DNA of 64,000 nt, taken from the NCBI GenBank assembly GCA_950295325.1, contig OX485805.1, forward strand, positions 21,811,501 to 21,875,500. The letters are read 5' to 3'. The first letter of the stretch is position 1, and every line of letters starts with the position of its first letter. Made by a program: the position numbers and the translations under genes. The notes beneath the pieces were generated by a model, which worked only from the letters and a program-made list of their open reading frames with translations, ran no database searches and was not told the DNA's origin. The DNA comes from Polytrichum commune. Its lineage: Eukaryota; Streptophyta; Polytrichopsida; Polytrichales; Polytrichaceae. This document shows positions 28,023-53,780 of this stretch, one piece after another.

Positions 28023-28025
28023 TAA

Positions 28026-28048
28026 GGCCGAAACCCCACTAGGGGCAG
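28026..28048 (+). repeat. Left terminal inverted repeat of the giant Harbinger
   Basis: 23 bp, exact reverse complement of 47943-47965. It starts GGCC directly after the TAA target duplication. The inner part CCCCACTAGGGG is itself nearly palindromic. Confidence 0.92.
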
Positions 28049-28360
28049 CCCCATTAGCCGGCCGGGCTAGGCTTAATAAGGCTACAGGAGCTAGTTGAGT
28101 AGGGGGTTCGAAGGTTTGCTGCCCCACTTAGCGGCAGGGTGGAGGGGTAGTGCCACCGGCCGCGGTATCTTCGGAGGGAGGCTCTCTGCAGCTGCGGGGA
28201 AGCTGCTGCCTACCCTCTCCGACTGTAAGCAGGGTTCTCTGTGATTCCAGGGGGCTTTTGAAGCCGGCCAGCTTCTCTTCCCTCCTTGCTCTCTTACCAA
28301 GCACTCTCCCACCTTGCTCTCTCCCACCTTCCACACTTTCAATTTAGGGTTGCGATTAAA

Positions 28361-29767
28361 ATGGACAACGATGTCCATACGCTGACAGTTTTCCTAATCT
28401 TACAGCTCTCCTTGCTCACAACATTGGAGTGTATTGATAGAGACAGGGAGGCGATTTTACTATGGCACTGGCAACAAATAAGTGTCCTAACACTTGCACT
28501 GCATTGGTTTAAGTTGTGGAGTGGGAGACAATAATGACGTTTGTGGGCTTATGATCGGGGGTTGCACAGACCAGGATTCTTCGACCAAAATTTGTTGGGG
28601 TCATTCAATGCACGGGAATTCAAAGGGCGAATGCGTATGGACGTTTCGACTTTTGAGTATTTGTGTTGTATTCTCGCACCCGACTTGGAGAGACAAGACA
28701 CGAGATTGCATTTGGCCATTCCGATCCATGTGAAGGTTGCTGTATCAATTTCTAGATTGGCTACTGGTAATTCTATGAAGTGCATTGCCGATTTGTACAA
28801 GATTGGCCTATCTTCTAGTCAATTGGCAGTGTCCCAATTTTGTGGTGCCATTAAAAAACATTTGCTTAGAAAATTCATCAATTGGCCCTCTTCTTCCACT
28901 ATGGAAAGATATGCACGGAAATTCGAAGACCTGCACCAGATTTCCTACGTCGTGGGGGCAGTGGATGGCTTGCATATACCCATCATTGCACCCCAACTGC
29001 ATACTCCGGATTACTATAACCGCAAAGTATTCCATTCAATCATGTTGCAAGGTGTGGTGTCTACCAAATGTTTGTTTTGGGTTTTTGATATAGGTTGGGC
29101 GGGCTCTATGCATGATGCCAACTTGTGGGGTCGGACCGCCATTGGACAGTATTGTGAAGCTGGCAAGTTGTCACCTTACACTTTGGTTGGCGATGCCGCG
29201 TATCCATGTAGGCCCTGGATGTTGGCACCCTTCAAGGGCCACAAAGACGGCCTTACGCGAGAGGAATATTATTGGAACTTTGTACAAAGTTCTACCCGCA
29301 TGTGCGTCGAACGAGCATTCGGAATGCTAAAAGGTAGATGGCGAATTATTTTGAAGAGGGTGGATGTGCAATTGAAGAACATGCCCGACTTGGTTTCCAT
29401 ATGCTTAGTTTTACATAACATGTGCATTATTTTTAGAGACACGTTTTGGAAAAAAGAATGGATGCGAGAGGCCACGGACGAGGTGCACAACGGACTAGAA
29501 ATCCCACAAGTGTCGGGTTCGTCCATGCGCGAGCGAATGGCCGTGACGAACTTGACATTGCACAGCTTGGCCGGTATTGATGACGAATCACGAGAAACTC
29601 TAGAATACATCAAGCAAGAAGATGCTATGGCATTTGAAATTTCAATGAGCACCGCCGGAAAATCATTCAAAGAGTTGTCCGCAAGACGAAATGACATTGC
29701 AAGAAGTATTTGGATGGCAAAGACAAAGGCATCCATTGCTCAAACTTTCACTGATGGCGAGGAATAG
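28361..29767 (+). pseudogene. PIF/Harbinger transposase (HARBI1-like), two tandem stops near the N terminus
   Basis: The open frame from 28541 to the stop at 29767 encodes about 408 aa of a HARBI1-like DDE nuclease. Catalytic residues are visible in GAVDGLHIPI, in LVGDAAYPCRPWMLAPF and in the glutamate of CVERAFGMLKGRW. GWAGSMHDANLWG and the family-typical C terminus are also present. In the same frame an ATG at 28361 gives 57 more codons that run to TAA TGA at 28532-28537, directly before RLWAYDRGLHRPGF. These stops, both explicable as C-to-T changes, break the full-length frame. A shorter product could start at the ATG at 28630. In this superfamily the transposase cuts the terminal repeats, helped by the Myb-like partner encoded convergently next door. 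Confidence 0.85.
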
Positions 29768-29911
29768 GGACAATATGTTTTCAAAGCTTCTCTACTAGTT
29801 TTTGCATTGTTTGTTGCATGTTCATCAATAAAATCATTTTCATGTCATTACTTGCCTTCAAACTATCCATAGGATTATTGCTACTCTCCTCAATTCTACC
29901 AAGGCATCGCT

Positions 29912-32900
29912 CTAAAAAATGTCCTCCTTGCGTTTGGGCTCGGGAAATTTTGATGTGCTCTCACCGCTCTTGTGTTCCATGGTGTTCGCGAACGATGGGC
30001 TTCCGGACTTCGGACCATCTGGCATCGTTGCACTCGCGTGCGCATGTGAAACAACATGTGCCCTATCGGACATGAACTCATCTACGAGTTGGTACCAACG
30101 ACATTTCTCGGAGCGGTCGGATCCTGATCGCATATTCATTGCCTTGTCCTCCTTGTAATCGTTGTAGATGGAACTCCATTTCTTCCTACAAGCCTCGCTA
30201 TCCTTTGTGAAATCCGGACAGAGGGACACAAGTTTCGTGTGCAGCCGGGACCAATTGTCCACACCTGCACAACGTTACAAAAAACAAATCATAATTTCTA
30301 TACACACACTGCGAATGACTCCTTGACAAATGGCATTTGAATTCCAACAAAATTGCGAATGAGCATTAAACACTATATTCGTTAAATTGAGAATTTTTGG
30401 GCATTTTGAGACATTCATAGAAATAAGAACAAGGATAAATGGAACACATATTGGTGAAAGTTGTAAGATGCGAACACTTTGAAGCATGTGTTTAGACCAA
30501 GAACCCCATTAATAACTCATATTTGTGATGGTTTAGGGTGGGCAACCCAAACCTTAGACCAAATTGAAGGGAAACCTTAAAACATTCATATTATTGCACA
30601 CAAAATATTAGAGCTTGTATGAATATGGTTTAGGTAGGGCAATCCAAACCATAGATCTTATTGAAGGGTTAATATGTTAACCAATATAATATTGCATACA
30701 AAATATTCCAAACTCATATTTGTGATGGTTTAGGTAGGGCATTCCAAACCTTAGACCATATGGAAGGGGAAATCATGTGACACTTATATTATTGCAAATA
30801 AAACATACAAAGTATGACATGTAAAATGCATAGCATGCTAACACCACACATCCATTGGATAGTGCGACCCAAAATGTTCTTGCCTATGGCCCAAAACCCT
30901 ACGCCTACTATGGCCTATCTAGCCTTGGAGAGTGCCTCTTTTTCTTTTGCTTTTGCCTCTTTTGCCTCTTTTTCTTTTGCTGCGGCTTCTTTTGCTCGCA
31001 TTGCTAAAACATTCCTGAAAATCTCCGCCCCGCGACTATAGCCATTCTTGGGGTGACCGCCATCAATAACTAATTTTGGATTCCGTCGGCCGCCCGAATT
31101 ATACGACGAAGATTTCGAATACGATGAAGTGGACTGTCTTGTATTTCTGGTCATGGAGTAGAAACGCTCCAACTCGACGGACGTACTAGCCCGCATAGGT
31201 TTACGGGTGGGACCAACCTGCAACGCGTGAATGCAAGAACACACGTGTTAGTTTAGGGAGGAAGACCCAAATGTGTCACACGTTCATTTTTTAAGTGCCG
31301 GATGATTGTAATGCGCGATTAACCATGTTTGGGGGGGGGGGGGAGTTCACCTTGTCACCGGGGGCGTTCCCGTCGGAGTTGGCGAGGAGGGGCAATGCGT
31401 CCCGCAAAGGAATAGGAAGGGTGCCACTCTTCGTAGGCCGAGCGCCCATCCGCAGCCGCCGTTGAGGTGTACTACTGCCGCCGGGCCGAGAGGGGGATGT
31501 CCGGACGCATTTGCGATTTATGCCCTTGAGCGGCGACGGGGACGGAGATCGCCGGAAGATTTGCTTGGGTGGGGGGCTATCGACGACACCGGCGTCAATA
31601 GGCTCCTTGGAGTAGTCGATGGTGGACGCGGCATCGTAGACGGTCTCGTAGAAGAAGCTCCCCAAGTTTGATTCGCTGATGATCTCAATCGAGGGCTCCA
31701 AACGCTGATGGCAAAATTAAAACAAACAAAATCCAAGGGGAGGGGGGGAGGGGGAGCATGTGAAAATCGATATACAATTGAGGCATAATATATCACACAC
31801 AATGACACACCATGTAGTATCTCAAATGAGTTTATTATATTTCGCGTGAGCGTACAACTCTCTGTACATATAGTCCTTCGGATCCATGTATCTTTCGCCT
31901 ATCGGATTACAACTAAGGAACCGGGGCACGGGTAGTCCGCTCCCCACGAGCGTTTGAAGGTACTTAAGTAGGTCTAACAAAAAGCGGTCTCGGACCTTCT
32001 CGACCGTCCACGTCGGGCAAACTATGAAGTTCGAGGTCGGGTTCAAAATGTTCTTGGAAGCGTTGTCGTCCACCATCAACATGTTGTCACGGGTGGGGCG
32101 AACGTCGTAGGGACAGCCGACCATGTTGGGGCGCTGGTCCCATACGATTGGCTTCAAGACCTTAAGAAATTGATTTACTGCGGGGTTGTTGGGTTTTTTC
32201 ACAACCCTGCCGTCGGAGGTGTATAATGTTTTACAAGAATCCTGTCCTAAGACCAAGCACGGGGGTTGGAGCCCCTTGAAGATGAACTCCACGACCGCAT
32301 GGGTGTTCTCGGACTTCATGAAGCTCCAAATGATCACCCACCATTTGGATAGGGCGACCTGTAGGAAGCGCCGAAGCCACGGGCGGAGGTACACTAGCTT
32401 GCTTTTGATGTACGCGGGGGGTCCATCGTAGTTGGCGTCCTCGGGCTTGCAAAAAGGTACCGTGGGGACCCTCGGACAATGCACGCACTGGACAAGGACC
32501 CCGTTGAGGTCTAGCACCAGGAACCGGGTCTTGGGAGGCAAAGGTGGCGAGGGCAAAATCGGGGGGACCAGCACGCTGTCCTCCACACTCCTCGGGGAGG
32601 ATCGGTGGGGAGCTGCGACGCTATGCTCCGAACCCTGCGGCGACGAGCGAGAGAAGGCGGCGAGGACTATGTTATGCTATGTCCATCTCAAGCAGAACGG
32701 AAATTTTGTGCAAACACAAGAATAATTGGACCATTGGTGGCAACAAAAACATACAAGGGGAACAACATACATTGGGACACGGATGCAAACATATGGGCGC
32801 CAAAAATAATAATTTTATTTTTACAAATCTCTATGTACAATTTGATGGGGGGGTGAACCGCGGTGAACTAGCCATTCACACTATCCTAACTGTGCATCTA

Positions 32901-35900
32901 CAAAATTGCATGTAAGCGCCGCGCAATATCGAGCGTAGTCGAGTGCAGGGTGACGAAATGATCGCGAAGGGGGGCACTGAAGGGGCGCAGGTATTGGACA
33001 TATGGGCATCGGAAGGCCGGGGTGCAGTTCCTCCTAGCTAGGGGGACAAGACCACGCCAACAAGACAATGACCAAGGAGGTTTGGGTCGATCGACCCAAA
33101 CTGAGAGGTCTCAGTGTATTACCTCGCCCTGGTCATGTCTCGATGCCGTGGAGGGCTCCATCGGCTGCGCTGCCCCTCCTCTCTCTCCAGCGCCTTCTTC
33201 AACGACATCAGCAACCTTCTCCTGCAAAGGTCCAGGATCAGGCCCTTGTCCTAAACCAATCTCCGCATGTGCATCATGCATGGGTTCATCAACTTGGTTA
33301 GGAGTAGAGGTATCACCATGCCCTTGCAGGCCTTCAACATCTAACATGGTTGTGTCTTTTTCACACCCATGTTGGTCAAGGGACGACTGTCCTGCACCAA
33401 GGTTTGGGTCACCCGACCCAAACTGTCTTGCATCGGGGTAGTTCCCTTGTGGCACTACACACGGGGGGGTGTTTGGGTCATCCGACCCAAACATTCGGGG
33501 GTCGTCATGCTGGTGAGGGGGAGCTATCACTATGGGGGGCCGAAGTGGTGGAGGCCCCAAAGGAGAGGAGGCTCCAGAGACACGCCAGATGCTGGGATCG
33601 TCCACTTGCTGGACCGGCAGGGTTGTCTATTGTGTCGTGACGGAGGCTAATCTCGGCATAATGTCGTGCTGTCACGACACGTATCCGTCACGACATTATG
33701 CCGGATGTTGTCTTTATCCTGACAAACTTGAATTTTACCGAATTCTGTGTGTAATTACATTACCCCATTTCGGACACGTAGGATGTAAGATGTCCATGTG
33801 TGATGACATGTCAGCAAAGTAGAGGTAAAGTGGGGGGAAAATTACTAGTGCCCGTCCACCCCCCGTCCGCCGCCGTTCCCGACCCCGTCCGCCGCCATTC
33901 CCGACCCCGTCCGCCCCCGTTCCCAACCCCCGTCCGCAAAAATAAAATAAAAAATAAAAACCATGTTCCCCCCCCCCCCCGTCCGCGCCGTTCCCGCCCC
34001 CGTTCCCTCCCCCGTCTGCCCCGTTCCCCCCCGTCTGCCCCACCCTCGTCCCCCGTCCGCCCCACACCCTCCTTAGTCATATTTTACTACTTTGATTTTA
34101 ACAGAATGATAAACATAATGGCAAAATGGTTTACCTGGCGCTAAGCATATCCACGTCCACGTCGGCCTTTTCTGCCACATAGGACGCCACCTTGGCAAGA
34201 AGGTAAGTATTTTACCCACCCTACTAGCTTCCCCCTAGGTTGACCCTACGTGGACCCTATTGTGTCGTGACGGAGGGGTCCGTCACGACACGACACGTCA
34301 TGACGGCACGACACCGTCATGACGTCGGGATAGACAACCCTGTGGACCGGGGCGTAGGGGACATTGTGTGGCCGCATCATGTGTTGGAAACTGAATGACG
34401 CTTGCGGCACAGACTGTTGAGGAATGCTCTGGGCAGGGAAGCCGGCGGGTAAGTGCGGAAAGGCGCTCGAGGGAGCCACCACCAATCCTTGCGCCCACAT
34501 TCCTTGAATGACCTGCGATATCAGGTCGGCGCTGGATGGAGGTTGGGCCATCGCCCTTTGTCGCTCCTGCTCCAATAGGAGAGCCCTCAACTCTGCTACC
34601 TCGTTCCGCATTGAGGGTTCTTCTGCGGCAACCTTCTGCATGCGGACTCGCTGCTCTTCGTCCCTCCGCATCTTCTCGTTCGCCTCCTCCACAGTCAGGA
34701 CTTCTGGTTTCACCCTAACCATGCCTGCGAACGATGTCGGGGAGGGGGGATCCGATCTCAGCCGTTTGGCGAGATCCATATCGTCCTCGTCCTCGCTGCT
34801 TATGGCGATGGTCTCCTCCCTTGCGTAGTCGCTGTAGAGCTTCTTCCCTTTCAACTTCCTCCTCTCCCTGAACGTTGCTGTCGCATCCCTGGAGTACATG
34901 TCTCTAGCATCGTCCACCGTGAGGACGGGCACCAACTTGCTTTGCGGGGTTGCCACCCGCATAGCTTTCTTCCGTTGGGGGGCTTCTGATTCTTGCGTGT
35001 AACCCGTTGCTCCTTCTTCTACCTCCCCTTCCGCCTTATGGTCCTCTTGTTCCTCTTCCTCCTCCTCCTCCTCCACCTCGTCACCTGGCCCCCGAGATGA
35101 GGTACCCGGATGCAATCCTACAAGTGGTTCGGGTGCTCCAACTGGAGCACTCGTGGCAAATTCTGCAAGGTTGACACGCCTTGCCCTATCCATCGGGTTT
35201 TCACCCCCCTCTACAATCTCCTCCATGTAGCTCCCCGGGATCCAATCGAGGATGTCCATCTTCTTGGCTAGGACTTTTTGGGTTTTGTAAAATTGAAGAT
35301 CATTGTCCTCTATATAGGAGTACATCTTCAAACCCAACATCTGGACATTCAAAAAACAACTTTGGATCAGAGATATGCTCATTAAATTACACCAAGAACA
35401 AGAAAAAGAAACAATAAGAGAAAACCAATACAAAAGGTTTGGGTCGCTCGACCCAAACCATCACTGTGGCAAGTTTGGGTCGCTCGACCCAAACTATAAA
35501 CCAACTATTTTGAAGTTACTTACCATGCCAGAATAGATAGGTTTGGAACCCCCGAAGACGTTGAAAATAGAATCCCCTCTTCTTGTCAAGGCCCTCATTA
35601 TCCGTAAGTAGAACTCCATCCGCAGCTCGTCGGCAGTATAGTTCGCGTACTTGGCCTCGTCGTAGAGGCTCTTGCTCGCACCCAACCCCTCTGGTACTTG
35701 GAAGAGTTTTTCCATCCGGTTTATGGGGTGGTTGTCGACCTTCAGCAAGTTCGCTTTGTATACAAAGTACAAACACAATACGTCGACAAGCTTTGTTTTT
35801 TTGTCCTTCAACGTCGAGTAAGACCCCTCCGCCGGTGCAGCAATGTAATGAGATTTAGAGACAGCATAATCAGGTTGCAATTTCCTCGCAATCTCATATA

Positions 35901-38900
35901 CCTGCTCCGCCCTCCTATCCTCGACTATCCACAACCAAATGTCGACCTCCCTAAATTTGGGACTTGCATAGTCGACGAACTTTGATAGGAAGGGCTCATA
36001 GAAGGGGGTGCTCATAGTACCCTCAAACGAACTTCCAGGAATGTTCCTGAAGTCTATCATCCCAAAGGGGAATCGATCCCCAGCATTCGTCCTTATCGCC
36101 TTGCGAGCCTCAATGCCAGGCCACCCCTGGATTTTTAGAGGCTCTATGGTGACAAGGTTGAAATGCGCGTCCCCCTCAAAACTGACAATTTTCTTCTCCT
36201 TTATGAAATTCGAGAAGACACGCGCTGTGTGATCGGGAAGTGCCCGATTCTTCCCACCTTTCACCAGCTTGGACCGCAGGAAGTCTTCCCCCGCTTCCCT
36301 GATGAGAGCCGCCATAGATGCACTTGTGAACTTGTACTCTGCCTTGAATGCTTTCCAGTTTGCGTCGTGGACCTCGCCATCCACAAAAAGGTTCATTTCG
36401 GGGACTATCTTGTGCAACTCTTGGACGATGGTGTTCTTCTTCTTCTTATTCTCCGTCCATTCCTTCATGGTGTAGCATGAAGGAACGAATGATTTAGGCT
36501 TGGAGAAGACTATCTTTGGGTGCGTCCAACATCTCTTTGCCGTGGGCTCGACGTGCAGGATGTGCGTGGCCGCCTTCCCCATGTCTGTCTCCGAAAGCCC
36601 TTGGAGTGTTCGAAAGAATTCTCTCATCAAAGGTTTGAGCTGCTTGAAACGTGCGGTCAAGTTGAAAAGCAGGCCTGTGTCGGGATCCATCAGGTCCCCC
36701 GTCTCGTGCTTCTCGAACACGTTCTTCCACTTCGACCAGACATGGTCAGATGCTGTTATCAAATAAATTTCTCCTCGCAACTCGTTATATTTCTTTTGCT
36801 TGTGACTCGCATTGTCAATGGAAGAAAACTTATTGATCATTTGGTACTTGAAATACTGCACATAAACATAGAAATTTATGTTAGATATGTATATGTTAGT
36901 TGGACATTTGCTTAGATGAAAAGGCTTGAATATTAACTCTTACAAGGGTTTCGGTCGATCGACCCAAACTATGAAACAAAACAAGAGTTTGGGTTGGTCG
37001 ACCCAAACTATGAAACAAAACAAGCGTTTGGGTCGATCGACCCAAACCACACTCACCTCTCACTTTGGATTCTTGTCCTTCGCATTCTCCCTCTCCTTGG
37101 GAGGCCTGCCGTAGAACTCCCACACCTCGCGTGAGGCCATGATGTTGCGAATCCACGAAGCTTGGTATGCCCGTTTCGTGTTCCCCATATTGAAGTAGCG
37201 GGAGATGTCACTGAGTCTGGTTTCGTCATCTGACCACACCACTAAGGCCTTCCACACCTTCAATTTATCTTTTTGGTTATTGGGATCATCCCACTCGGCC
37301 ATGAGTTGGATTTTCTTCGATGCTTCCACGCTGTGTTGTCCGTCAATTAACCAAAAATCGCCTTTTTGAATTGATGGCCACATATCCGGAGTGGGCATTT
37401 TTTTGTGTCCCTGGGGCATGACTACAATAGTTTGCCTATCGTCTTTGAATTGCTCGCTCACTATCTGGGCGATTATCCAATCGACGTAGGCATCTTCCTT
37501 TGCCCGAACACACTTTTCTGGTGGGGCTAGGTGACACTGAGCAATATTGATGTCAAATTTGAAGTCCCTACCCATGAAGAAACAGTGAGAACACTTGGTC
37601 GTGAAATTGTTCACGATTCTTTGGATCTCAGACGCATCCACTTCTTGTCCGGGCTTTGGCATGCGCAGTTCTGGGGAAACTGGCTCGTCCGTCATAACCG
37701 ATGCCGATTCTCTTTGCCTCTTTGAAGGAGTTGTCTGACGGCTGTTTGATGGCGTGGGTGTCTCACTATCCGCCGGTGTTGCCGTAGGCGTGGTTCTTCT
37801 TGAGTCAGCCGGAACCGCCCGCGGCTTCCTCACTGTTTGAGGTCTGGACGAGCCCGCGCCTTCTTCTGTTGTGGCCTTCCTCCTCACCGGCTGTTGTGAT
37901 TTTGACTTGCTCTGTTGAGCCTTGTTTAATGCGTTGATTACTTGCTTAAGCTTTGTAAACCTGGATGCCACCTTTGTGTTTGAAATGCTTCCATCTATGA
38001 AGATAGACTCTAGTTTAATAACCTCTGGCTCAATGCAAGTTTCTTTTATGTACAGGGGGTCAAATGCCTCGGAGAATTGATGCATGAACATGTGCGCATT
38101 CTGCATTGCAGAATTCTCGAGTATGACGTCCACGTAGTCACCTAGAGCCTGTACTGACGCCACCTCCCACCCCGTCAAAGTTGCCCATGTGTTTTGATCC
38201 ACTGTCCCAACTTTCACCACAAAGAGGATCTTGAATTGAGATGCCTTCACCACTTGGAGAGACCATGCAATCACCAGCCCATCCTTAGGTACATAAGATT
38301 CATCTTCAGGTGTCTCGTGTTCCTGCCAAACCACATCTGGTGTGAGCATGAACCATCTCTCTCCAGGTCTTTTTTTGGGGGCCATCTGCAAGAAAACGAC
38401 AACGCTGTTAGTTTCGGTCGTTCGACCCAAACTATTATCTATGTATATTAGCATGTAGACGGGAATAACTGATGTCATATATGTTGAGGTCACGAATTGG
38501 CAGGTTTGGATAGATCGATTTGTCTTTTGGCAACTTTCATATTTTTTAGATATAAGTGTACATCCCAAAATAGATCTGTATAATAAATTTGTTTCATGAG
38601 ATTTTATTTTATTGGAACGATATGAATATGTTTTGCCATGGTTTGGGTCGCTCGACCCAAACCAACTTTTGTGTTTGGGTCGCTCGACCCAAACCAGCTG
38701 TTGTGTTTGGGTCGCTCAACCCAAACCAGCTGTTGTGTTTGGGTCGTTCGACCCAAACCAACTTTTGTGTTTGGGTCGCTCGACCCAAACCAGCTGTTGT
38801 GTTTGGGTCGCTCGACCCAAACCAGCTGTTGTGTTTGGGTCGTTCGACCCAAACCAACTTTTGTGTTTGGGTCGCTCGACCCAAACCAGCTGTTGTGTTT

Positions 38901-41900
38901 GGGTCGCTCGACCCAAACCAGCTTTTGGATTTGGGTCGCTCGACCCAAACCAGCTTTTGTGTTTGGGTCGCTCGACCCAAACCAGCTGTTGTGTTTGGGT
39001 CGCTCGACCCAAACCAGCTGTTGTGTTTGGGTCGTTCGACCCAAACCAGCTTTTGGGTTTGGGTCGGTCGACACAAACCAGCTGTTGTGTTTGGGTCGCT
39101 CGACCCAAACCAGCTGTTGGGTTTGGGTCGCTCGATCCAAACCAGTTTCCGTACACTGAAACAATAAAGATTAGTTGTGAATAATATGTATTCTCGACTA
39201 ATTCTTGTTGTTTCAATTTACGATCGTTAATGATTCATTGCTTATTATGAAATGATTGTTATAAAATGCTTATTAAATGATGCTTATTATATAATACATT
39301 TGATAGAATGCTTAGAATAGAATGCTTAGAATAAGTAAAAGAAAAACAAACTTATGCACCAAAAACGTTACCTGTTCTTGGAAGCTTTAGAAGAAGCTTT
39401 TCTTGCAAACTATAAGTATAATTCGAATCTGAGAAGCAGTTGTGCTCTAATCTCACAAATACTGGAAACTCTGTTGAACCTTAGAGAGCTCTACAGACGA
39501 AATGAACAAAACTTTCAATGTCGCAACACTCTGTGTGTAAAGGTAATAAGATTTGAAGACCCTAAACCCTCAACACTCCGAATTTCACAAACTCACAACC
39601 CTCAAAACTCTGAATCTAATCCTTCAAGCTATCACCAATCTGATAATAAACCCTCAGCACTCAACACTATAAAGCTCTTAAACCCTCAACACTCTGAATC
39701 TAATTCCTTCAAGCGTCAACAATGTAAATGCTAAACTTCAACACTCTAAACTCCACACTCTAAACTCCACACTCTAAACTTCACAACCTTCAACACTGTA
39801 AAGCTCACTCCTTCACGCTATGAACATTCTAAAGCTCCTAAACACTTCACACTCTAAATCCTTAAACCCTCCACACTCTGAAACGCACAAAGTATCAATA
39901 CTATTACGAGTAAACCAAGAAGAAGAATCACACAATAACCTATAGCATCTATACTCGCACGATAGAAGACCAGAATGTGGAATCTACATGCTCTACCAAG
40001 AGAATGGAGGGAGGAAGAGAATGGAGGGAACGCGTCACTTCGTGGAGGCGGCGCTTCAAAAGAGGCGGCGCTTCCAAGAGCAGCGCGGAGCTCACTTGCG
40101 GTGAAGAGGTAAAAAGACCCGGGTAGGGCAACCTTTCGGGTTTTGTTCCCCTCGGGAAAAGGCCCTAAACCCCGGCTTTAGGGCACCCCTTGAAACTCTA
40201 AACCCACGCAAATAGGTTCACGGGGCAGCTGTAATCCCTAAACCCTTACCACCCGACCTTTGGCGGCATTTAATTTCTTCCGAAACAGGTACATATCTTA
40301 AGGTTTTCACATAATTTTCAATTTTCCAAAGTATTTGAACTTATAGGCTCCTAAGTTGTTTACCGACTTTAGATTTTAAGTAACACAAATTATTTCACAT
40401 TCATCTTTGTCATCTGTGTTAATCATCTTTCCCAACTCCGGTTTTAATGTATTGAATTAGATTGTCCTTGATTGGGATTGCTTAAATTGAAATTAATCCA
40501 TTACGTGCTTTATAATTTGACATGTGTAGACATATGGAATCACAAATGCTCAAAGGCAATTACACGGTTTAATACTATTAGTATGGTACCATTTGTATGG
40601 TTTGATAATATGAATACGTATTTTTATTTATGTGATGCTTAATGCTGGAGGACAAGGCTGTAGCCTATCATAGATCACTTAAAAGTAGCTTTACACTAAT
40701 TCAATTATACAAGTTTATGTATTTTCAATTATTCTAATATGGAATCACGCTAATTGTATTCATACCTTATCATAGTTTTTTGTCAAAAAGAAAAAATCGG
40801 TTGTTTGATTTATATCATGGAACATGAATATATTTATATGGAAGTTGTCATTTAAAGTAAACAAGAGAAGCATAACGATTAAAATTGTAACCCCTGCACC
40901 CCCTTGGAGTTCAACATCATATGAAGCCATTGAAGCAATCACTTTGTTGGTCAATGGTCGTTACACATATACTAGGGTTTAGGGTTTAGGGTTTAGGGTT
41001 TTCAAATAAGAATAACAAATTGGGACTTGTTGCACCACAAGCCATAAATGATTGGCACATAGGTCAAATGATGAGGCCTCAGTGCATGCAAAATTATTTA
41101 CAAATGTATTTAGTTATGACAACATTTCAATTCAAGGACATGGAATATGGTTGTGTGGTCGTTTACAAGAAAATTCAATAAAGCAAACATACGATCTTGT
41201 GGTTACAATCAAGTCATCCTTAGTATGAGGATTCTAATAACAAGATTATAGTACATACAATCTTTATCATGTTAATATCTTATTTGAGATAATTTAACAC
41301 TATATACTTATGAAAGGTACGTGATATAATTTTGTGAATGTTATAATGACATACATTTCCAACTTTACATGCTTTGGTCACAAACACTACTAAAGATAAA
41401 ATGGATTTGAGGATAAGTTCAAACATCCTTGGAAGAGTGGAGTAGAAAGTGTTATGTGTGCTTGGAATTTCTTAAATAAAAACAATAAATTGGGACTTCT
41501 TGCACCACAAGCCATAAATGATTGGCACGTATGTCAAATGACGGGGCCTTAGTGCTTGTAAATTTAAATACAAATTTTTTTAGTCATGACCACATTTTAA
41601 TTGGAGGATGAGAAATACGGTTGTGTGAACGTTTAGGGTCTAAACTCACTACAGCGACCATGTGATATAGTGGTCATAATCAGGTCATCCTTAGTACGTG
41701 GAGACTAATAACAAGGTTATAGTACATACGATCTTTATCATGTGAATATGTTATTTGAAATATTTACACATTATATACTAATGAAAGGAACATTTGATTT
41801 TGTGAATGTTATGAGGACATACATTCCCAACTTTGCATGTTTTGCTCATAAACAATGCTAAGAATAAATTGTATTTGAGGATAGGTTCAAACATCCTTGG

Positions 41901-44900
41901 AAAAATGAACTAGAATGTGACATTTGTGCTTGAAATTTCATTAATGACTTCCACAAAGGTTAGTCATTGTCATAGTTGCATGCTTGAGAATGGAGTAACG
42001 TTGTGTGCACACTTTACAAATGACATATTGTGAGCTTTAAGAGTTTTTTCTCATTTGCACAATGTCATGTTTGTTTTTTGTTGTTAATATTATATATTTC
42101 CTCTTTTGATGGTCTCATTAGCTACTTTAACGGTTGTATTTAGTGACTTTTACCATATGGAGTTAAACGATGTTGCCACATTTTTGTCAAAATAATTGTT
42201 AAAATATATTATAATGTTTGAGTTCAAATAGAGTAATATCTTGCAACATAATTTATTATGTTCCTTAGATGGATCAAAGGGAAGTTGTTCGGAATTATTT
42301 TCTAAATCTTATATCAGATCTACATTTCCTTTAATGCACTTGTTAAAATACATGCCGCTACTACCTTTCCTACCAATGGTGCAAGTCATATTCACTTAAA
42401 AAAATAGAAAACGGATACAATATCTCAAATAGTGACAATACATATTTATTCTACATACAGAATATATGTGAACTCAGATAACTTGATGGTTGGGGCACCG
42501 AAGAGCCACCCTTAGTACACATTTTCTATTATAATCACGAGGTGGGAAAGTATGTCAGAAAGTTTGAATTACCGGCTAAAGGGGAATCAAGCGGGAAAGG
42601 TATCCAAGAGGAAGCAGGGCAGCGGATGCGGACAGTATAAAGGGCCAGCCTCCCCGAAAAGTCGGTCCTTTTTGCTCATCTCCCTCTCCAGAAATTGTAG
42701 CAAGCTCTCTCACTTGGAGCTCCACTACAAGGTTAGAGCACACTAGCATTCATGAGCAAGCAATCACAACATTCATCCATGATTTTTATTTCCCTACATA
42801 TACTATATTTAGATTTCACCATATTCACGCCGCATTATACGGCATATTTTACGGACAGTTTGGGTCGCCCGACCCAAACCTATCCCCACAGTGGCCAGGT
42901 AGTAGGGTTGACTCAGAGCCCATCCCCCCCCCACATAGTTTGGGTCGGTCGACCCAAACCCTTCTCCACAGTGGGGAAGTACTTGGGTTGACTCCGAGCC
43001 CATCCCCCCCTACATAGTTTGGGTCGTTCGACCCAAACCTTTCTCCACATTGGGCAGGTACTAGGATTACCTCAAACCCCATCCCCCTTAGATAGTTTGG
43101 GTCGGTCGACCCAAATCCTTTCCCACATATTGCAGGTACTAGGGTGGACTCTGAGCCCATGTCCCTCCTACAAGGTTTGGGTCGGTCGACCCAAACCCTT
43201 CCCCACAGTAGGCAAGTACTGGGGTTGACTGAGAGCCCATCCTCTCCTACATAGTTTGCATCGTTGTTGCCAATTGTTTCCAAGGGATAAATTGAAGGCC
43301 ATCCGCGAAGAAATGTGGCTTGGAGATTTCCGTCTAAGATCCACAAAAAAAACTTGATGTCCATAGGGTGATACATGTGAATGGGACGGGTCGCAAGGTA
43401 ATCACCATGGAAAGCATAAACGTGTGTTGTAAGGCATGGTACACCATTCACGGTGTGTCGAAGGCGGACTTCTATAGACAAGCTGCTTATGCCAAGGAAG
43501 GTCGCCGGTCCCGTCACCATGGGAACGTGGATTTAAAGAAACCTAGGGAAGCAACAAGACAAGCAACGGCCACTCTAGCAACCATCATTGTCCCCCTTGC
43601 CGATGCAATGCCGCACAAAACACGTACACTCACAACCGGTGAAAAGGTTGTGGAGAAAGTTCTTCCCACATGCACAAAATGGAAAGACATATTGTTGGAC
43701 GTGAATGCAGTTGGCGAGAAGATTGGGTTGGAGCCAATTTCATTGTCAAAATTGAGTGCAATAAAGAAAACAAGCTTTAGTGAATACATTACAAAAAGAC
43801 GAGGGGACAAATTTGCCCGGTGCTCTAATTGCGAAAAGTTGAAGCGTCTTCGGGATGCACACACGATGGGTACCGAGTCATATGCGGCACATCAATTGAA
43901 CTATTTCAAACACGTAAACATGCAAGAGGCACACCGTAATGATTACTACACAAATAGAGCTTTGTCCATCTCTAGGCCATTAGAGGTTCTCACGGTCATC
44001 CATGACAAAATGGATCATGCCAAAATAGCCTCTCCATGTTTTGCAAATCGAATCAAGGCCACGGATGGGTTTTTTAAGTTGCTTGTATCGGTTACAGGTG
44101 AAGTGTGAAACAATGTCATCACATACCCTAAATGTTGTGGTGTTTCATTACGTGATGTACTAGAGATCATGGATTAATTCAAAATGGTTTATTTATACAT
44201 AGATACTAATCACGTTGGGTTGGCATTGCAGGAATGATTGCACATGGACACGGTGATGTCAAGTTTGCTCATTACGCTCTTGATTTGTATCCAGCGGATT
44301 CAAACCACACGATAGGATCATTTGCAAGGCTTTTGCGTGATTTAGAGAAACCGCCAGCCTATTCTTCAGGATTATTATTTGAGAACACGGGTTCAACACC
44401 TCTATATGAAGCGGTGTTGGATGGAAAAGATGTATGCTTGCATTCGTTGCCAGAGCCACCCAGTGAACCCGTGATCGCCAAGAAGTTGCCCCCAACTTTA
44501 CGTGTCCAATTGGACAATTGTGCCAAGGACAATAAAAGTAGATATGTATTTGCATATTGGTCGTTGTTGGTTGCGAAAGGCATTTTCAAGGAGGTTTTTG
44601 TGTCCTTTCTATTGGTAGGCCACACGCACGATGATATTGATGCATCTTTTGGGCGATGGAGCATGAAGTTGCGGGAGGAGGATTTTCCTACAATCCCGTT
44701 ATTGATGAAATCGTACATGGATTTGGAGAACATTCCCGTCATCCCCCATATGATCGAGGAGGTGCCAGACTTCAAGGCATTTATAGAACCTTATATTCGA
44801 AGTGGAGCTCACCGATTGATCGGGCATACGAAGGCACAACAATTCTGCTTCTATATGCGTGACGATGGTGTCCCGGTCATGCAATACAAGTTGTTGTGCA

Positions 44901-47447
44901 CGACACAAGACTGGAGCCCGCCGGAGGGTCTTCTTGTGTGGCGCGTGGATGCGGATGGAAAGACCATGTTACCGGATGGGGAGCCTAGGCCTTGCAAGCC
45001 AATAGCCATGAAGAATTTGGAGGATATTTTGAAAGGTATATCAGGCTTCATACAATATTGGGAGAGTTTGAAAATAGCGGATGTTGGCGGATCATGTTGG
45101 CATCGTTATGGGAGTTGGATACATTATTGGACACGTGTTCGTGCCGCCTTGGCAGACCTCCACCAAGATAGCCCTCATACTTTGAGGCATGGATTTTGGC
45201 CACAAACACGAGTCGATGTACAAGCTTCGGAGCCTAGTCTTTTGGGAAATGGAGAGGTTCGAGAGGAGTTTGATGTGGACGACCATTACGTGGGGCCTGC
45301 TAGTAGTCGTCCCCCACCATCTTTCCGCATTGCAGTGGATTGTCATGAAGGTTATATGCTCATTTTGCGTCCTGGAGACGAGACATATGCAAAGCCAGTG
45401 TGGGTGGCAAGAGCTTTGTCCAAACCCAATTTTGTAACTTCCAGCCCTCATTTTCGACAGATACAAGTGGAGTACTATCGACCGACAACACGGAATGAAG
45501 ATGTTGTTCGGCATTATACAGGCTGGGATACAAACCCTAACTTTCGGTGGAAGGTGGATTCTGAGCACGGTCCATCTTGGGTAGATACAGATTCCATATT
45601 CATAGCATGGAAACCACGGAAAAACCATAGTGGATCAGTGTCCATCCCTCAAAAGTACATAACTTTTGCAAAAGACAACCTTACTCGGATTGCACAAGAA
45701 GCAACCCACGTTGAATGAGAAGTTGGTAGGATTGTGTTAGCATGATTATAGTTTAATACGTAATTATAGCAATATAAATTACACATATGTGTGTTCTTCA
45801 AAATTGGGGCAGAGTTTGGGTAGAACTTACGAATACTATATTGTTTGGAGTTGGATGAATATCCATTTACTATATTTCAAAGAAAATTGAAGTTCATCTT
45901 ATTATTATGTTTGGGACTATATTGTCGAATGAAGAAATATGCATTTATTACATGCACTTTGTATGTTGCAATGTCTATATTCTATTGAGCATGCTAATAA
46001 TAGAAATCATTTTATATGTTTTTTGGGTGGAACTTGTTTGGAGTGCTCTAGCCAATGTGTTTTTGTTGATGAAGTTGGTGTCGAGTGCTCTACCATATGT
46101 GCTTATGTCCGCACATCATAGATTTGGGATATTAGAACATATAATATAATTGAGATTGTTGACAATATAGTTTCGGGCCTCTTCAAGTTCTTTGATCCAT
46201 ATATTAATTTGAGACTAGAGAAAGTCTCAATTTAACGAATATAGTGTTATTAATAATATTGAACGATAAATTATCCTAAATCCATACTTCTGTGGAATAG
46301 AGGCAGAGCAAATTACAAACATAAACATGCTTATATTTAATTTGAAAATATATTTTGTGTGTGGTAACAGGGAATAATATGCGAGAGAGAAAACTTAACG
46401 ACAGCAGGTAAAAAATCGATGTGCAGCAGACTGCAGATTCCCGACTACAGAGGCATTGCAGTCTGCTGTATAAAAAAACAGAGTATATTTACGAATTCTG
46501 AGGGCCCTGGAATACAGTCTGCAGACAGGTAATATTCTTTAAAGGCTGCTGCTGCCGCCTTGCACAGTCTGCAGGCAGTTTACAGGTAGTTTTATTATAT
46601 ACCAGCCTATTTGTGAAAAACAGATTGCAGCTTTGTGTCGAATTACAGAAAATAACCAATTCCAATGGCTAAAAAATGAATTTCAGTTGCAGGCAGGAGA
46701 TACACAAAAAAAATAAAATTGGTTTCAACAATTTTGCATACTATCACTATATTCGTTAATTAGATACTTTCTCTTCTTTGCAAGTAATATATGGACAACA
46801 CCAACATGGTGCAATGTTTGGGGTTGTCCTACCTAAACCATGTTGGCTTGCATTTCCTAAATGGGTTCTCGATATGAACACCCGCTTCAAATAACTCTTG
46901 ATCGACCACACTTATAATGAAAAGCACAAAAGAATAAAAAAAACAAGAAAAAAAATTCAAGAGGCACACCTTGCTTGAATGCGTTGAATGTGTTTTGCAT
47001 CTCCCCCCGAAGCGAAATGAGTTGAATGACCCAGTGGTCCTTCCAATGGTGAGCATGCTTCAAGAGCTCCACATCCTCTTTGGCATCGTCCAGTTCCACA
47101 ATTTCCGGTTTCCTTCGGGGGGCTCTTTTTTTCTTGATGGACTTGGAGTGATCAATGACTGGGTCATGGGGGCCTCGTTTTGGTGGTTCTTCAGTGAGAT
47201 CAATTGTGGCACTAGGAGTGCCTTGGGCGGGAGCATTGAAGCCATACCCTGGAATTGGAGGCATGTAGGAATGGGCATATACAAATGGCAATTGATTCCC
47301 CACCCCCGGAAAGCCATGAAAGAATGGTGCGGGAGCAATGGGAGGACGTGGCCCTGAATTTGGAGAGCATGGGATAGGGGGGATTCCACCCGTCACAACA
47401 CTCGCATTGCCACCACCCGCTTCCCGCAAATTACCTTGTGACTCCAT
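29912..47447 (-). CDS. Harbinger Myb/SANT-like partner protein, two exons separated by a 16.7-kb intron
   Basis: Exon 1 is 47447-46970 and exon 2 is 30264-29912. Together they are 831 bp, 276 aa. The donor (G then GTGTGC) and acceptor (TTGTGCAG) agree in phase and join KHAHHWKDHWVIQLISLRGE...FNAFKQG to VDNWSRLHTKLVSLCPDF. The joined domain is the Myb/SANT-like (trihelix-type) domain typical of the second Harbinger protein, continuing with SEACRKKWSSIYNDYKEDKA and YQLVDEFMSDRAHV. In known Harbingers this protein binds subterminal DNA and helps bring the transposase into the nucleus. The N-terminal 110 residues are Pro/Gly-rich with basic KSIKKKRAPRRK. No internal stop is seen. All cargo genes lie in its intron. 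Confidence 0.82.
30530..30790. repeat. Tandem repeat, about 98 bp x 3, each with a relaxed palindrome
   Basis: Imperfect palindromes of type GGTTTAGG(T/G)...(A/T)(C/T)CCAAACC lie at 30530-30553, 30627-30650 and 30727-30750. Each is followed by TAGA(C/T)C, GAAGGG and a TATTATTGCA.A.AAA phrase. The arms resemble the strict palindrome TTTGGGTCG/CGACCCAAA of the cargo region, with mismatches. Confidence 0.7.
30915..31704 (-). CDS. Hypothetical cargo protein, two visible exons, Pro/Ser- then Lys/Ala/Glu-rich
   Basis: Exon A is 31704-31351 (118 codons; acceptor GCCATCAG, donor AAG then GTGAAC). Exon B is 31217-30915 (acceptor GCGTTGCAG; ends in a stop). Phases agree. The product runs through a Ser/Pro/Arg-rich stretch (FRRSPSPSPLKGINRK, STPQRRLRMG) into GRRNPKLVIDGGHPKNGYS and a charged, probably coiled-coil tail (AMRAKEAAAKEKEAKEAKAK). 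No family is recognised. No start codon lies in exon A, so an upstream exon is missing from this model. It sits in the Myb intron, on the same strand. Confidence 0.45.
31341..31351. other. Splice donor next to a poly-G/C run
   Basis: The donor of the hypothetical gene's exon A (AAG then GTGAACTCC) is followed on the minus strand by a run of C at about 31331-31343. Such runs are prone to length change and assembly error. Confidence 0.4.
31822..32634 (-). CDS. FCP1/NIF-type HAD phosphatase-like exon (cargo)
   Basis: An open exon of 271 codons preceded by a consensus acceptor (TCGCCGCAG). The frame ends in a stop at 31822. The HAD core is recognisable: RFLVLDLNGVL (motif I), LRPWLRRFLQVALSKWWVIIWSFM (motif II region), and PTRDNMLMVDDNASKNILNPTSN (motif IV, acidic pair). 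FCP/SCP enzymes remove phosphate from proteins such as the RNA polymerase II tail. Here the second aspartate of motif I is Asn (DLNG), a form also seen in plant FCP-like HAD proteins, so catalysis is uncertain. No in-frame ATG is present, so at least one 5' exon is missing or the copy is truncated. It is probably a captured host gene piece. Confidence 0.6.
   Translation of the reverse strand, partial: GSEHSVAAPHRSSPRSVEDSVLVPPILPSPPLPPKTRFLVLDLNGVLVQCVHCPRVPTVPFCKPEDANYDGPPAYIKSKLVYLRPWLRRFLQVALSKWWVIIWSFMKSENTHAVVEFIFKGLQPPCLVLGQDSCKTLYTSDGRVVKKPNNPAVNQFLKVLKPIVWDQRPNMVGCPYDVRPTRDNMLMVDDNASKNILNPTSNFIVCPTWTVEKVRDRFLLDLLKYLQTLVGSGLPVPRFLSCNPIGERYMDPKDYMYRELYAHAKYNKLI
33081..33491. repeat. Three palindromes around the 3' end of the ParB/methyltransferase-like gene
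   Basis: 33081-33100 (perfect, centre AT), 33403-33422 (centre ACCC) and 33472-33491 (centre ATCC). The latter two lie inside the coding frame and are read as FGSGDPN and FGSDDPN. The first is just past the stop codon. Confidence 0.9.
33618..34342. mobile_element. hAT-type MITE, 725 bp, inserted in exon 3 of the ParB/methyltransferase-like gene
   Basis: The terminal inverted repeats are CAGGGTTGTCTAT. The element is flanked by a perfect 8-bp duplication TGGACCGG (33610-33617 and 34343-34350), as expected for hAT. The subterminal zones are rich in TGTCGTGACGG and its complement. The middle has C-rich CCCCCGTCCGCC minisatellite sequence on the plus strand. It has no coding capacity. Removing it with one target copy makes the exon 3 frame continuous (APVQQVDDPSIW). 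Confidence 0.9.
35438..35493. repeat. Two palindromes in intron 2 of the ParB/methyltransferase-like gene
   Basis: Strict copies at 35438-35457 and 35474-35493, both with centre CT, within 90 bases of the 5' splice site (35523). Confidence 0.93.
36949..37046. repeat. Three palindromes in intron 1 of the ParB/methyltransferase-like gene
   Basis: Copies at 36949-36968, 36988-37007 and 37027-37046, spaced 39 bases apart with an ATGAAACAAAACAAG linker. The last begins 5 bases inside the intron from the donor. Two have one or two mismatches. Confidence 0.93.
38412..38431. repeat. Single palindrome 27 bases upstream of coding exon 1
   Basis: TTTCGGTCG-TT-CGACCCAAA, one mismatch, just before the acceptor of the first coding exon (38386) of the minus-strand gene. 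Confidence 0.85.
38641..39152. repeat. Palindrome array: 16 perfect-length 32-bp units
   Basis: Sixteen units of exactly 32 bp (512 bp, no length change). Each is a 20-bp palindrome TTTGGGTCG-NN-CGACCCAAA plus a 12-base linker of type CCAGCTGTTGTG or CCAACTTTTGTG. Units 4, 7 and 13 have centre TT, and linker variants also recur every third unit, giving a 96-bp higher-order period. It lies about 0.26 kb upstream of the ParB-like gene's first coding exon. All six frames are open through it because 96 is a multiple of 3; these frames are artefacts. Confidence 0.97.
39153..40260. promoter_or_regulatory. Probable 5' region of the minus-strand cargo gene, with minisatellite
   Basis: Between 39555 and 39890 an imperfect repeat of AACACTCTRAA / CCCTCAACACTC occurs many times. 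At 39950-40250 the sequence turns GC-rich (CTTCGTGGAGGCGGCGCTTC type), in contrast with the AT-rich surroundings, as a promoter or 5' leader would. Placement as the promoter of the ParB/methyltransferase-like gene is inference. Confidence 0.35.
40974..41001 (+). repeat. Interstitial telomere-type repeat (TTTAGGG)4
   Basis: Four exact 7-bp units of the plant telomere repeat, directly followed by the first unit of a 470-bp tandem duplication. Confidence 0.93.
41003..41945. repeat. 470-bp direct duplication
   Basis: Two diverged copies (about 41003-41470 and 41473-41945). Shared landmarks are TGGGACTT(G/C)TTGCACC, AAGCCATAAATGATTGGCAC, AGTACATAC(A/G)ATCTTTATCATG and GGTTCAAACATCCTTGGAA. No coding signal is present. 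Confidence 0.85.
41946..42540. other. AT-rich spacer inside the giant element
   Basis: Nothing recognisable is seen between the 470-bp duplication and the promoter-like region of the DUF7869 gene. Confidence 0.4.
42636..42642 (+). promoter_or_regulatory. TATA box candidate for the DUF7869 cargo gene
   Basis: TATAAAG in a GC-richer context (GGACAGTATAAAGGGCCAGC), about 0.6 kb upstream of the first coding exon. A good splice donor (CAAG then GTTAGAG) at 42732 would open a 5' leader intron ending at 43254, which contains the five-unit palindrome array. Confidence 0.5.
42859..43254. repeat. Palindrome array: five units of 78-80 bp ending exactly at a splice acceptor
   Basis: Palindromes start at 42859, 42939, 43018, 43096 and 43176. 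Each is followed by a TCCCCACAGTGGGCAAGTACT-like linker and GAGCCCATCC...ACATAG. The last unit ends with CTACATAG at 43254, which is also the 3' splice site of the DUF7869 gene. The exon then starts TTTGCATCGTT, itself similar to the start of a palindrome (TTTGGGTCGTT). Confidence 0.9.
43255..45718 (+). pseudogene. DUF7869-type protein, probable RNase-H-fold transposase/integrase (one frameshift)
   Basis: Exon 43255-44097, a GT-AG intron, then 44232-45718; about 775 codons. One extra A in an A8 run at about 43345-43352 shifts the frame between REEMWLGDFRLRSTKK and LDVHRVIHVNG. It may be real or a homopolymer error. Conserved-looking blocks are VITMESINVCCKAWYTIHGVS, a CSNC pair, VIHDKMDHAK, GMIAHGHGDVKFAHY, then VQLDNCAKDNKSRY and FLLVGHTHDDIDASFGRWS. 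The last two are the hallmark of DUF7869 proteins of plants. Acidic residues in HDKMDH, LDNC and HTHDDID could form a DDE/D triad, which is inference. It is divergent from the ParB-like gene. Confidence 0.7.
45719..46815. other. AT-rich spacer with CTGCAG-rich patch
   Basis: At 46420-46640 the word CAGTCTGCAG or CAGTCTGC recurs about five times within 200 bp. No gene is supported. Confidence 0.45.
46816..46838. repeat. Relaxed palindrome near the 5' splice site of the Myb intron
   Basis: GTTTGGGGTTGTCCTACCTAAAC pairs imperfectly with itself and resembles the relaxed copies at 30530-30750. It lies about 130 bases into the Myb gene's intron. Confidence 0.55.
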
Positions 47448-47942
47448 GGAACCCTAAACCCAAGTTACAAGAAAATGAAAAGTTGATCAAAAGAGAAGCA
47501 AAACTTTTTAAAAAAAAAAAAAAAAATTAAAACCAAAAAAAAGAGGAAAACACAAACATGGTGATAGGTTTGAAAGCTCACCTTGGGAGGGCGGCAGAGG
47601 GTCATTAAAATCGTTGTAGAAGAGCTCACACTGTGAAGGCCGGAGCTGATTGCACAGACAAAGCCTACTCTGTTTCCCGCAGCAGCTGGTTTCTCAGAGC
47701 TTCCTTCCTCTGCGAGGTCCTCCCCGGGTGTCGAAGATGACCGGGACCTGTCCACGTGGCGGTGCAAGTAGGGGGACCAGTAGGGCACCGGCGCCGGGGG
47801 GGGTCAGAGAGCCAGGCACCCTCCCCTGGCACTTGACCTTCACCCAACGGCCCTGCCAGGTAACCCTCCCGCCGTTTTTCCTGCCCCTTGTGGGGCACTG
47901 GCACCCCTGCCGCAGCCAATTAGGTTGCACGGTTTGCTTTGC

Positions 47943-47965
47943 CTGCCCCTAGTGGGGTTTCGGCC
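47943..47965 (-). repeat. Right terminal inverted repeat of the giant Harbinger
   Basis: 23 bp, exact reverse complement of 28026-28048, followed by the target copy TAA at 47966-47968. Confidence 0.92.
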
Positions 47966-48354
47966 TAAAACCGCTTTTAGACTAAAACTACTTCTAACTA
48001 ATGTCAAGTGGGAATGCCCCATTAGGATGATTATCATATTTTGAGATGCATGTAGTCTGATATCTTTAAAACACATGTTTTTGGGCGTTCTTGAAGCCAC
48101 ACCTAACCGCAAACCACTCAAATATAGGTCTCCGATTAAGAGAAGTAACCGATTTAGGCACATCGATTTAGACCGATTTGAGCTCCTTTCTTTTGTGCAG
48201 TTCTGTCGAGTGTAGGTAGGTGACCTTTGACGCAAACCCGGCCCAACTCAACTTTGCTTCATCCGCTCTCGGATGGAGGAGTCGCACAATAATACCGAGA
48301 TTGCTGCTCGCTCCGAATCGAATTGTTGGTAAGCTTAGCGGATTGCTCTCGCAA

Positions 48355-53187: not shown

Positions 53188-53780
53188 GAGGTTGCTTTAC
53201 TGCCGCAACTGCAACTTGTGGACTTCAACAACCTCAATTCCAATGAGACTGTAGTCGAGGATGCAGTTGAGGATTTAGTCCAGAATTTATCCCAAACTAC
53301 TTGAGGTGCTTCACCAGGTTCAATTCGGAAGCCCTGACGAATTGTCGAGAGCTCTGATGGGTCCTGCAGGTTTCAGCGACAGTTGATACCTTAATCCATC
53401 ATCTACAGTTTCTATTTAAGTAGAATCGACCAAAACCCAAATCCAAATTATAGCATGCTTGAGTTGCATTATAGGATCCTCATCCGAGGAAATTAAATAC
53501 GTTCATTTTTACTTGATTACAAATTTAATCACTTGTAAATGTCACTATATATAATTTTATTCTAGTAGACATATTACTAAACAGTCAATACAAAAGTGAT
53601 AAACAATGCAAGCTCGAAAAAACCACATTTCACCATGCAAACTAAGCCGCAACACATGTTGATGCAATGGAACACCTCAAAAGTATTTTCTTTTGCAAGT
53701 ACTGGAATTATCGTTTAGTAACTTAATCGGATTTGTAGTCCCTCTATTGACATTTTCCATTGGTTGTGTTTAGGATATAT
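53188..53780. other. Upstream region of Ca2+-ATPase copy 2
   Basis: It should hold the 5' leader and promoter of the minus-strand ATPase. GAGGTTGTTG just upstream of the start is shared with the leader of copy 1. No other feature is recognised. Confidence 0.4.

Follow-up and report, generated by a model that had tools for sequence, protein, structure and literature searches.

How does a PIF/Harbinger transposon come to measure almost 20 kb and to enclose genes unrelated to it? The question is raised by a 64,000-nucleotide stretch of the Polytrichum commune genome (assembly GCA_950295325.1, contig OX485805.1, positions 21,811,501 to 21,875,500; the whole stretch is called the window below), in which Harbinger-type ends lie at positions 28026 and 47965. 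A sequence-only reading of the locus had proposed either a gene-capturing Harbinger of very large size or a Harbinger that hosts a nested mobile element of some other type. Our analysis favors the second answer. We give a probability of about 0.8 to an account in which a giant, Sola-1-like transposon, encoding a DUF7869 protein and a ParB-like protein that would read palindromes of its own element, inserted into the Myb-like gene of a 4,056-bp Harbinger, within an intron.

The enclosed segment, 15,880 bp long (30369-46248), has ends of its own. Terminal inverted repeats (TIRs) of 24 bp, AACACTATATTCGTTAAATTGAGA, are located at 30369-30392 on the forward strand and 46225-46248 on the reverse strand, identical at 24 of 24 positions, and the target duplication ATTA is present on either side (30365-30368 and 46249-46252). 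Homology to another copy (C3:15269000-15288499) extends in pieces across 30365-46251, and none was found beyond this span within the Harbinger. Such ends are abundant in the assembly searched (407.8 Mb in 64 contigs, seven of them 42-78 Mb): allowing two mismatches, there are 1,112 (554 forward and 558 reverse), and none for the reversed control. For an analysis of pairs we used 100 listed ends (those matched exactly, from contigs C1 and C2) and joined adjacent converging ends less than 40 kb apart. An exact 4-bp duplication flanks 23 of the 24 pairs obtained from these ends, and a 5-bp duplication flanks none; mismatched pairings, as a control, agree over 4 bp in 13 of 552 cases. The pairs are 3.6-38 kb in size (median 17.1 kb), with 13 of 24 at 16.0-17.9 kb. 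We estimate that the family makes up ~2% of the genome, based on ~550 end pairs of ~16.5 kb with shortened copies counted as full. At the insertion sites of the listed ends, A/T-rich duplications such as ATGT/ACAT are favored, and C occupies position -5, just outside the duplication, in 45 of 100. A CACTA/EnSpm identity was considered, given that the TIR contains CACTA, and was rejected: the ends read AACACTA and are accompanied by the 4-bp duplication in 23 of 24 pairs. One shortened copy of 3.6 kb (C1:11508363-11511968) retains both ends, the DUF7869 coding sequence, and an ATGT duplication.

Related Harbinger elements clarify how this segment is placed. We retrieved six copies with transposases 75-83% identical to that of the window. 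In five of the six, the parts that flank the insert here are 0.6-1.1 kb apart and the insert is absent; the sixth (C5:21409000) matches the left part only and is uninformative. The Myb-like gene of the relatives has a proximal exon (MESQG or MDSQG...) near the distal Myb exon, whereas in the window these exons (46890-47453 and 29915-30274) lie on opposite sides of the insert, so the giant element sits in the intron of the Myb-like gene. The empty site is shown at the gene level only, because the intron beside the junction is too diverged for a base-exact reading: the joined flanks are 29-58% identical to four related copies within 100 bp of the junction. Subtraction of the nested element and one ATTA leaves a Harbinger of 4,056 bp, an ordinary size. 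Taken together, the segment's own TIRs and ATTA duplication, its many copies elsewhere, and the insert-free Harbinger relatives argue for nesting rather than Harbinger cargo; the 15.9-kb segment is a separate, later insertion and no part of the Harbinger. The nested-element alternative thus holds, and the element type, left undefined by the sequence-only reading, narrows to a giant DUF7869 transposon with TIRs, closest to Sola-1. Just to the right of the insert, at 46743-46765, the Harbinger contains a degraded giant-element end (4 mismatches), perhaps the trace of an older related insertion.

The outer element is a PIF/Harbinger, with the TAA duplication, short TIRs, DDE transposase, and Myb-like second gene of that superfamily. 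Its TIR GGCCGAAACCCCACTAGGGGCAG at 28026-28048 (forward) recurs as the reverse complement at 47943-47965 (reverse strand), identical over 23 of 23 bp and divergent beyond, between TAA duplications at 28023-28025 and 47966-47968. These are the perfect TIRs and duplication noted previously from the letters, and they stand. So does the pairing of a transposase with a Myb gene. The transposase open reading frame (ORF; 28538-29767, forward) matches PF13359 (DDE_Tnp_4, E=1.1e-31) and has 105 matches in the genome, including itself and fragments, the best other being 83% identical. The Myb-like gene is on the reverse strand, with a first exon (46890-47453) that is conserved in related copies and a Myb/SANT-like distal exon (29915-30274) that partially matches PF13837. 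The score of this match (22.4 bits, E=1.7e-4) is below the 27-bit curated cut-off, and two related copies score similarly (22.3 and 22.8 bits); the frame of this exon ends earlier in the window than in related Harbinger copies. Genome-wide, the TIR has 18 matches with up to three mismatches, versus 0 for the reversed control, so the pair is not due to chance. No further occurrence was found within the window with up to four mismatches. The sequence-only reading had proposed a genome scan for other such TIR pairs at 3-25 kb spacing. The scan returned none among the 18 matches (and nine from another scan), and the four other pairs detected are spaced 412-476 bp apart, similar to miniature inverted-repeat transposable elements. 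PIF/Harbinger elements are described as having a TAA duplication, short TIRs, a transposase, and a Myb-like gene (PMC10741241); interruption by the nested element is the sole difference seen here.

The nested element encodes genes on both strands. On the reverse strand we identified an ORF for a NIF/FCP1-like phosphatase (31822-32676; PF03031, E=3.4e-13), a conserved ORF that is probably the 3' exon of a ParB-like gene (34246-35433), an exon putatively labeled methyltransferase-like (35494-36861), and a ParB-like exon recognized by a DGQH motif and its position among the genes (37060-38400), the conserved part of which starts near 38400. The DUF7869 gene is on the forward strand. Its first retained exon (43262-44108) shows homology from 43262 and a change of frame near 43347, and the second exon (44210-45718; PF25273, E=6.7e-40) likely contains the transposase core. 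Frames are open in the window copy for the phosphatase, the methyltransferase-like and ParB-like exons, and DUF7869 exon 2. Genome-wide protein searches, in which the best candidates were scored, returned at least 85 matches for the ParB-like protein and at least 87 for DUF7869. The canonical motif I of such phosphatases is DxDx. In all three aligned sequences, one of them from the 25-kb family described below, this motif reads DLNG or DVNG (DLNG in the window); the protein resembles phosphatases of the C-terminal domain type, and given this substitution its activity is doubtful.

The window copy was compared with five other copies of the nested family (A-E) by the Nei-Gojobori method. Versus copies B, C, and E, the ratio of nonsynonymous to synonymous divergence (dN/dS) is 0.19-0.29 for the phosphatase, 0.125-0.224 for the probable 3' exon, 0.044-0.092 for the methyltransferase-like exon, and 0.13-0.16 for DUF7869 exon 2. 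For the ParB-like exon dN is 0.078-0.089 and dS is saturated. Ratios for copies A and D, which are close to the window copy, are noisier (0.22-0.85). Ratios of 0.34-0.84 were obtained for a short ORF at 31291-31701, so no gene is claimed there. Overall, these values indicate that the genes of the family are under purifying selection between subfamilies. Gene order is constant among the copies. The subfamilies are mosaic: the nearest relative is not the same for the phosphatase, ParB-like, and DUF7869 parts. When the window copy is compared with B, C, and E, its DUF7869 exon 2 is closest to B (dS 0.07) and its phosphatase to C (dS 0.09, versus 0.70 with B); copies A and D are close to the window copy throughout.

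A second family points to the same set of genes. In ~25-kb elements that start ATGGGGATATTAAC, DUF7869 relatives with 692-aa frames were detected near the right end. This family has 96 ends in all (up to two mismatches), forming 33 adjacent pairs. Of these, 20 measure 24.0-25.6 kb, and 29 have an exact 4-bp duplication, versus 4 of 1,056 mismatched pairings. Gene content was determined by pairwise searches of one copy read end to end (24,986 bp). Order and strands are the same as in the nested element: a phosphatase (32% identity, E=6.5e-22; PF03031, E=4.4e-11), a methyltransferase-like gene (25% identity, E=6e-18), a ParB-like gene with an HGQH motif (E=7e-6 with composition correction off), and DUF7869 (36-48% identity in three segments). 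The occurrence of this gene order in a deeply diverged family, combined with purifying selection, indicates that the genes of the nested element are a conserved core and not captured cargo.

Further DUF7869 lineages were also identified. Two of these, 65% identical in exon 2, have ParB-like and methyltransferase-like genes in the 10 kb upstream, and no phosphatase was seen within the stretches retrieved. In another, the fifth lineage examined (C2:52982700-52998200), a DGQH-motif gene lies opposite DUF7869; in the region of the motif, identity is 30% (E=1.7e-4). A reverse-strand frame of this lineage (L037:1280-1777) resembles a Harbinger-type transposase by eye. Beside one 25-kb element, a reverse-strand frame (L033:9272-9817) has the motif VWEGNHRVTAW and may encode a further ParB-like protein.

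Transposases with an RNase-H fold are expected to combine upstream acidic positions with a downstream H...D motif. An alignment of 12 DUF7869 frames shows GHTHxD[IV]D to be invariant and DNC...NK nearly so, and DxMD is present upstream in six of the seven rows that reach that region. Given this match of near-invariant acidic and H...D motifs to the expectation, we infer that DUF7869 is likely a DDD/E transposase. Such an enzyme would cut and paste the element between its TIRs.

The tandem repeats of the window copy proved to be copies of an inverted repeat, GTTTGGGTCG-NN-CGACCCAAAC, with 10-bp arms and a 2-bp spacer. Three are located 5' of the phosphatase ORF (33080-33492), two (35437-35494) and three (36948-37047) between exons, and 17 just 5' of the ParB-like gene (38411-39142; one at 38411 and 16 in a 32-bp tandem array). 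Five more, in a tandem array with a unit of ~80 bp, lie immediately 5' of the DUF7869 gene (42858-43196). Some palindromes are isolated rather than tandem. Six overlapping frames on both strands at 38574-39234 arise from the 32-bp palindromic array and are not genes. We counted 61 perfect inverted repeats with arms of at least 9 (overlapping counts) in the window copy. The left flank (28 kb) has 7, the right flank (16 kb) has 0, and the Harbinger parts have 1; Markov controls gave 0-3. Allowing two mismatches, the palindrome occurs 30 times in the window copy and at 32, 32, 33, 34, and 27 sites in copies A-E (copy A lacks a recognizable left end, and the right end of copy D is beyond the retrieved stretch), and it is absent from both window flanks and from the Harbinger parts. 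In six elements tested with spacers of 0-8, exact arms occur at spacer 2 only. There are 9,231 exact sites genome-wide and none for the control. The first 100 sites are all on C1, and 77 of them are located inside an exact listed end, at most 20 kb from it. The shortened 3.6-kb copy, which has no ParB-like gene, contains no palindromes.

Four families each have their own palindrome. That of the window family is absent from the 25-kb copy, which instead has CCCACGGGTG-NN-CACCCGTGGG at 18 sites (up to two mismatches). Most of these are 5' of the phosphatase, around or 5' of the ParB-like and methyltransferase-like gene, and 5' of DUF7869 and between its exons. This sequence has 644 exact sites genome-wide, and 37 of 50 listed sites adjoin a listed end. 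The 10 kb upstream of the two further lineages was retrieved afterwards to see if the pattern holds, the loci being partly known before. One has a private 10-2-10 palindrome, TTTACGGACG-NN-CGTCCGTAAA, at 7 exact sites (16 with up to two mismatches), and the other has TTTACGAACG-NN-CGTTCGTAAA at 17 exact sites (25 with up to two mismatches). The TTTACGGACG and TTTACGAACG palindromes differ by one symmetric base per arm, and their counts with mismatches therefore overlap. Thus, palindromic sites occur in cis with a ParB-like gene, a trait of ParB-parS-like recognition, in four of the five lineages examined. A scan of short (~3-kb) DUF7869 loci (L018-L031) was uninformative, as L024 and L028 have no palindromes within 3 kb yet have them upstream.

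How might these parts work together? Given that the sites are symmetric and their spacer is fixed, the ParB-like protein is the best candidate binder, as a symmetric dimer on the 10-2-10 palindromes of its own family. The region downstream in the same gene, if a methyltransferase, would modify DNA at the palindromes. Since palindromes adjoin all of its genes, the element may control its own expression, via anti-silencing or autoregulation. By such recognition the element would mark, and probably keep active, only its own kin. In the fullest version of this scheme, protein and sites would co-evolve: the ParB-like dimer of each family would read a family-private 22-bp palindrome beside all genes and mark or shield only its kin, through DNA modification or anti-silencing; the address would change when families split, as between TTTACGGACG and TTTACGAACG, and the FCP1-like phosphatase, as the third core gene, would act on transcription in the host. 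We put this version forward tentatively, at slightly less than even odds.

Several observations weigh against the interpretation of the nested element given here. Of the earlier cargo annotation, the phosphatase (PF03031) and DUF7869 (PF25273) labels are confirmed; the ParB/methyltransferase label is without profile or sequence support in Pfam, NCBIfam, PHROGs, or PDB and is based on the DGQH-type motif and gene position. A PHROGs search returned nothing below E=0.05. PDB sequence searches with DUF7869 and with the ParB-like, methyltransferase-like, and phosphatase proteins found no credible relative: the lowest E-values were 0.00023 (9l08) and 0.018 (3shq, UBLCP1), with no stretch passing alone, and all others were at least 0.41. 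AlphaFold gave no usable fold for DUF7869 exon 2 or for the ParB-like core, each modeled without an alignment (mean predicted local distance difference test [pLDDT] score 34 for both). A search of viral contigs, sensitive to close relatives only, detected none for DUF7869 or the ParB-like protein, and Rfam gave no match at gathering score in 27000-49000. One row of the DUF7869 alignment (L020) has SNF in place of DNC, and a copy outside the alignment (L019) has GHIH. The window DUF7869 lacks at least about 120 N-terminal codons that are present in copies B and C, and the window copy is therefore probably not autonomous at present. The 3.6-kb copy was considered as proof that DUF7869 suffices for transposition and was dropped: it is unique, with a deletion junction found once in the genome (up to three mismatches), and the N-terminal part of its DUF7869 is missing. 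No listed end adjoins 23 of 100 listed palindrome sites in the window family or 13 of 50 in the 25-kb family. For two of the 18 sites in the latter (614 and 1465), the window family has no equivalent. Finally, the fifth lineage has a DGQH-motif gene and no palindrome array in 15.5 kb, where five single palindromes were found.

The absence of an array in that lineage fits an alternative in which the palindromes are bound by the DUF7869 transposase or by a host factor, and their pairing with the ParB-like gene is incidental. The sites adjoin all three genes and could be promoter or enhancer elements. However, they are internal and absent at the element ends, and the deletion copy that keeps both ends and the DUF7869 coding sequence has none. 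A host factor, for its part, could not account for a different palindrome in each family. We consider binding by either of these unlikely, while giving it real weight. A second alternative sees in the arrays neutral repeats, satellite-like or hairpin-forming, that slippage and gene conversion have spread from copy to copy. It would fit the tandem arrays, in which the number of units (32 bp and ~80 bp) varies, and the visible recombination of the subfamilies. Yet the exact 2-bp spacer is constant in four palindrome sequences, the sites occupy the same gene-adjacent places in copies with poorly aligning middles, and some are isolated and non-tandem; neutral spread is thus improbable. The weakest alternative, a genuine 20-kb Harbinger moving captured host genes as cargo (the other proposal of the sequence-only reading), is very improbable and is refuted as an origin: the segment lies within intact Harbinger TIRs and TAA duplications, but it has its own TIRs and 4-bp duplications in hundreds of copies elsewhere, is missing from five of six related Harbingers, and is matched by no second 20-kb TIR pair with up to three mismatches, although later movement of the composite is possible.

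With nesting of a giant transposon that reads its own palindromes as the preferred account, the closest published relative, compared by description only, is Sola1-1_Ec32 of Ectocarpus. This is a 21.5-kb giant Sola-1 element with a gene for a ParB-like protein and DNA methyltransferase opposite the transposase (PMC12477816). Similar proteins are reported from green and red algal transposons and were proposed to bind and modify their own transposon (PMC12477816). The likeness lies in the giant size and, judging by gene position and a DGQH-type motif, in a putative ParB-like and methyltransferase-like gene opposite the likely transposase. In contrast, the Polytrichum elements have a phosphatase gene and cognate palindromes, neither of which is mentioned for the Ectocarpus element in the available part of the report (PMC12477816). 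They also reside in a land plant, and their putative methyltransferase domain is without profile support. The Ectocarpus element has 1,989 copies, of which 2 are intact (PMC12477816), whereas here there are ~550 end pairs, many of 16-18 kb. The Sola superfamily has a DDD transposase and 4-bp target duplications, includes elements >15 kb, and occurs in Physcomitrella (PMC10741241). Our elements share the TIRs and the 4-bp duplication (23 of 24 and 29 of 33 pairs). On this basis DUF7869 elements with 4-bp duplications appear Sola-1-like, by description and not by transposase sequence.

VANC anti-silencing proteins are encoded by VANDAL/Mutator transposons, a class other than that of the giant DUF7869 element, and the likeness drawn here makes no claim of protein homology. 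In Arabidopsis their targets are often tandem repeats that differ between related transposable elements (PMC5735166). The ParB-like protein would be analogous, as an element-encoded protein with repeat targets that vary among related elements, its function being predicted from this pattern. If this is correct, VANC would be joined by a further example of a transposon addressing epigenetic control to itself, and such proteins could be a source of sequence-specific DNA-binding parts. In algal transposons, ParB-methyltransferase proteins have been suggested to bind the DNA of their own element, and the palindromes are candidates for the missing DNA half of that suggestion. As the four families have four different palindromes, specificity is directly testable by protein and site swaps. 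The results also link DUF7869, a Pfam domain with no assigned function, to mobile elements whose ends and target duplications are defined, and identify the accompanying genes as a conserved core rather than captured cargo. DUF7869 was mentioned in none of the papers searched, and among the titles and beginnings of abstracts surveyed none reported a NIF phosphatase in such an element. Relative to the literature consulted, the shared phosphatase, the DUF7869 link, and above all the private palindromes appear new; the search predated the palindromes, and none was aimed at them.

The neighbors of the Harbinger include genes for Ca2+-ATPases with a CaATP_NAI domain and P450 fragments. Two single-frame Ca2+-ATPase genes, at 7192-10533 on the forward strand and 49903-53196 on the reverse strand, flank the Harbinger in opposite orientation and are very similar by eye.

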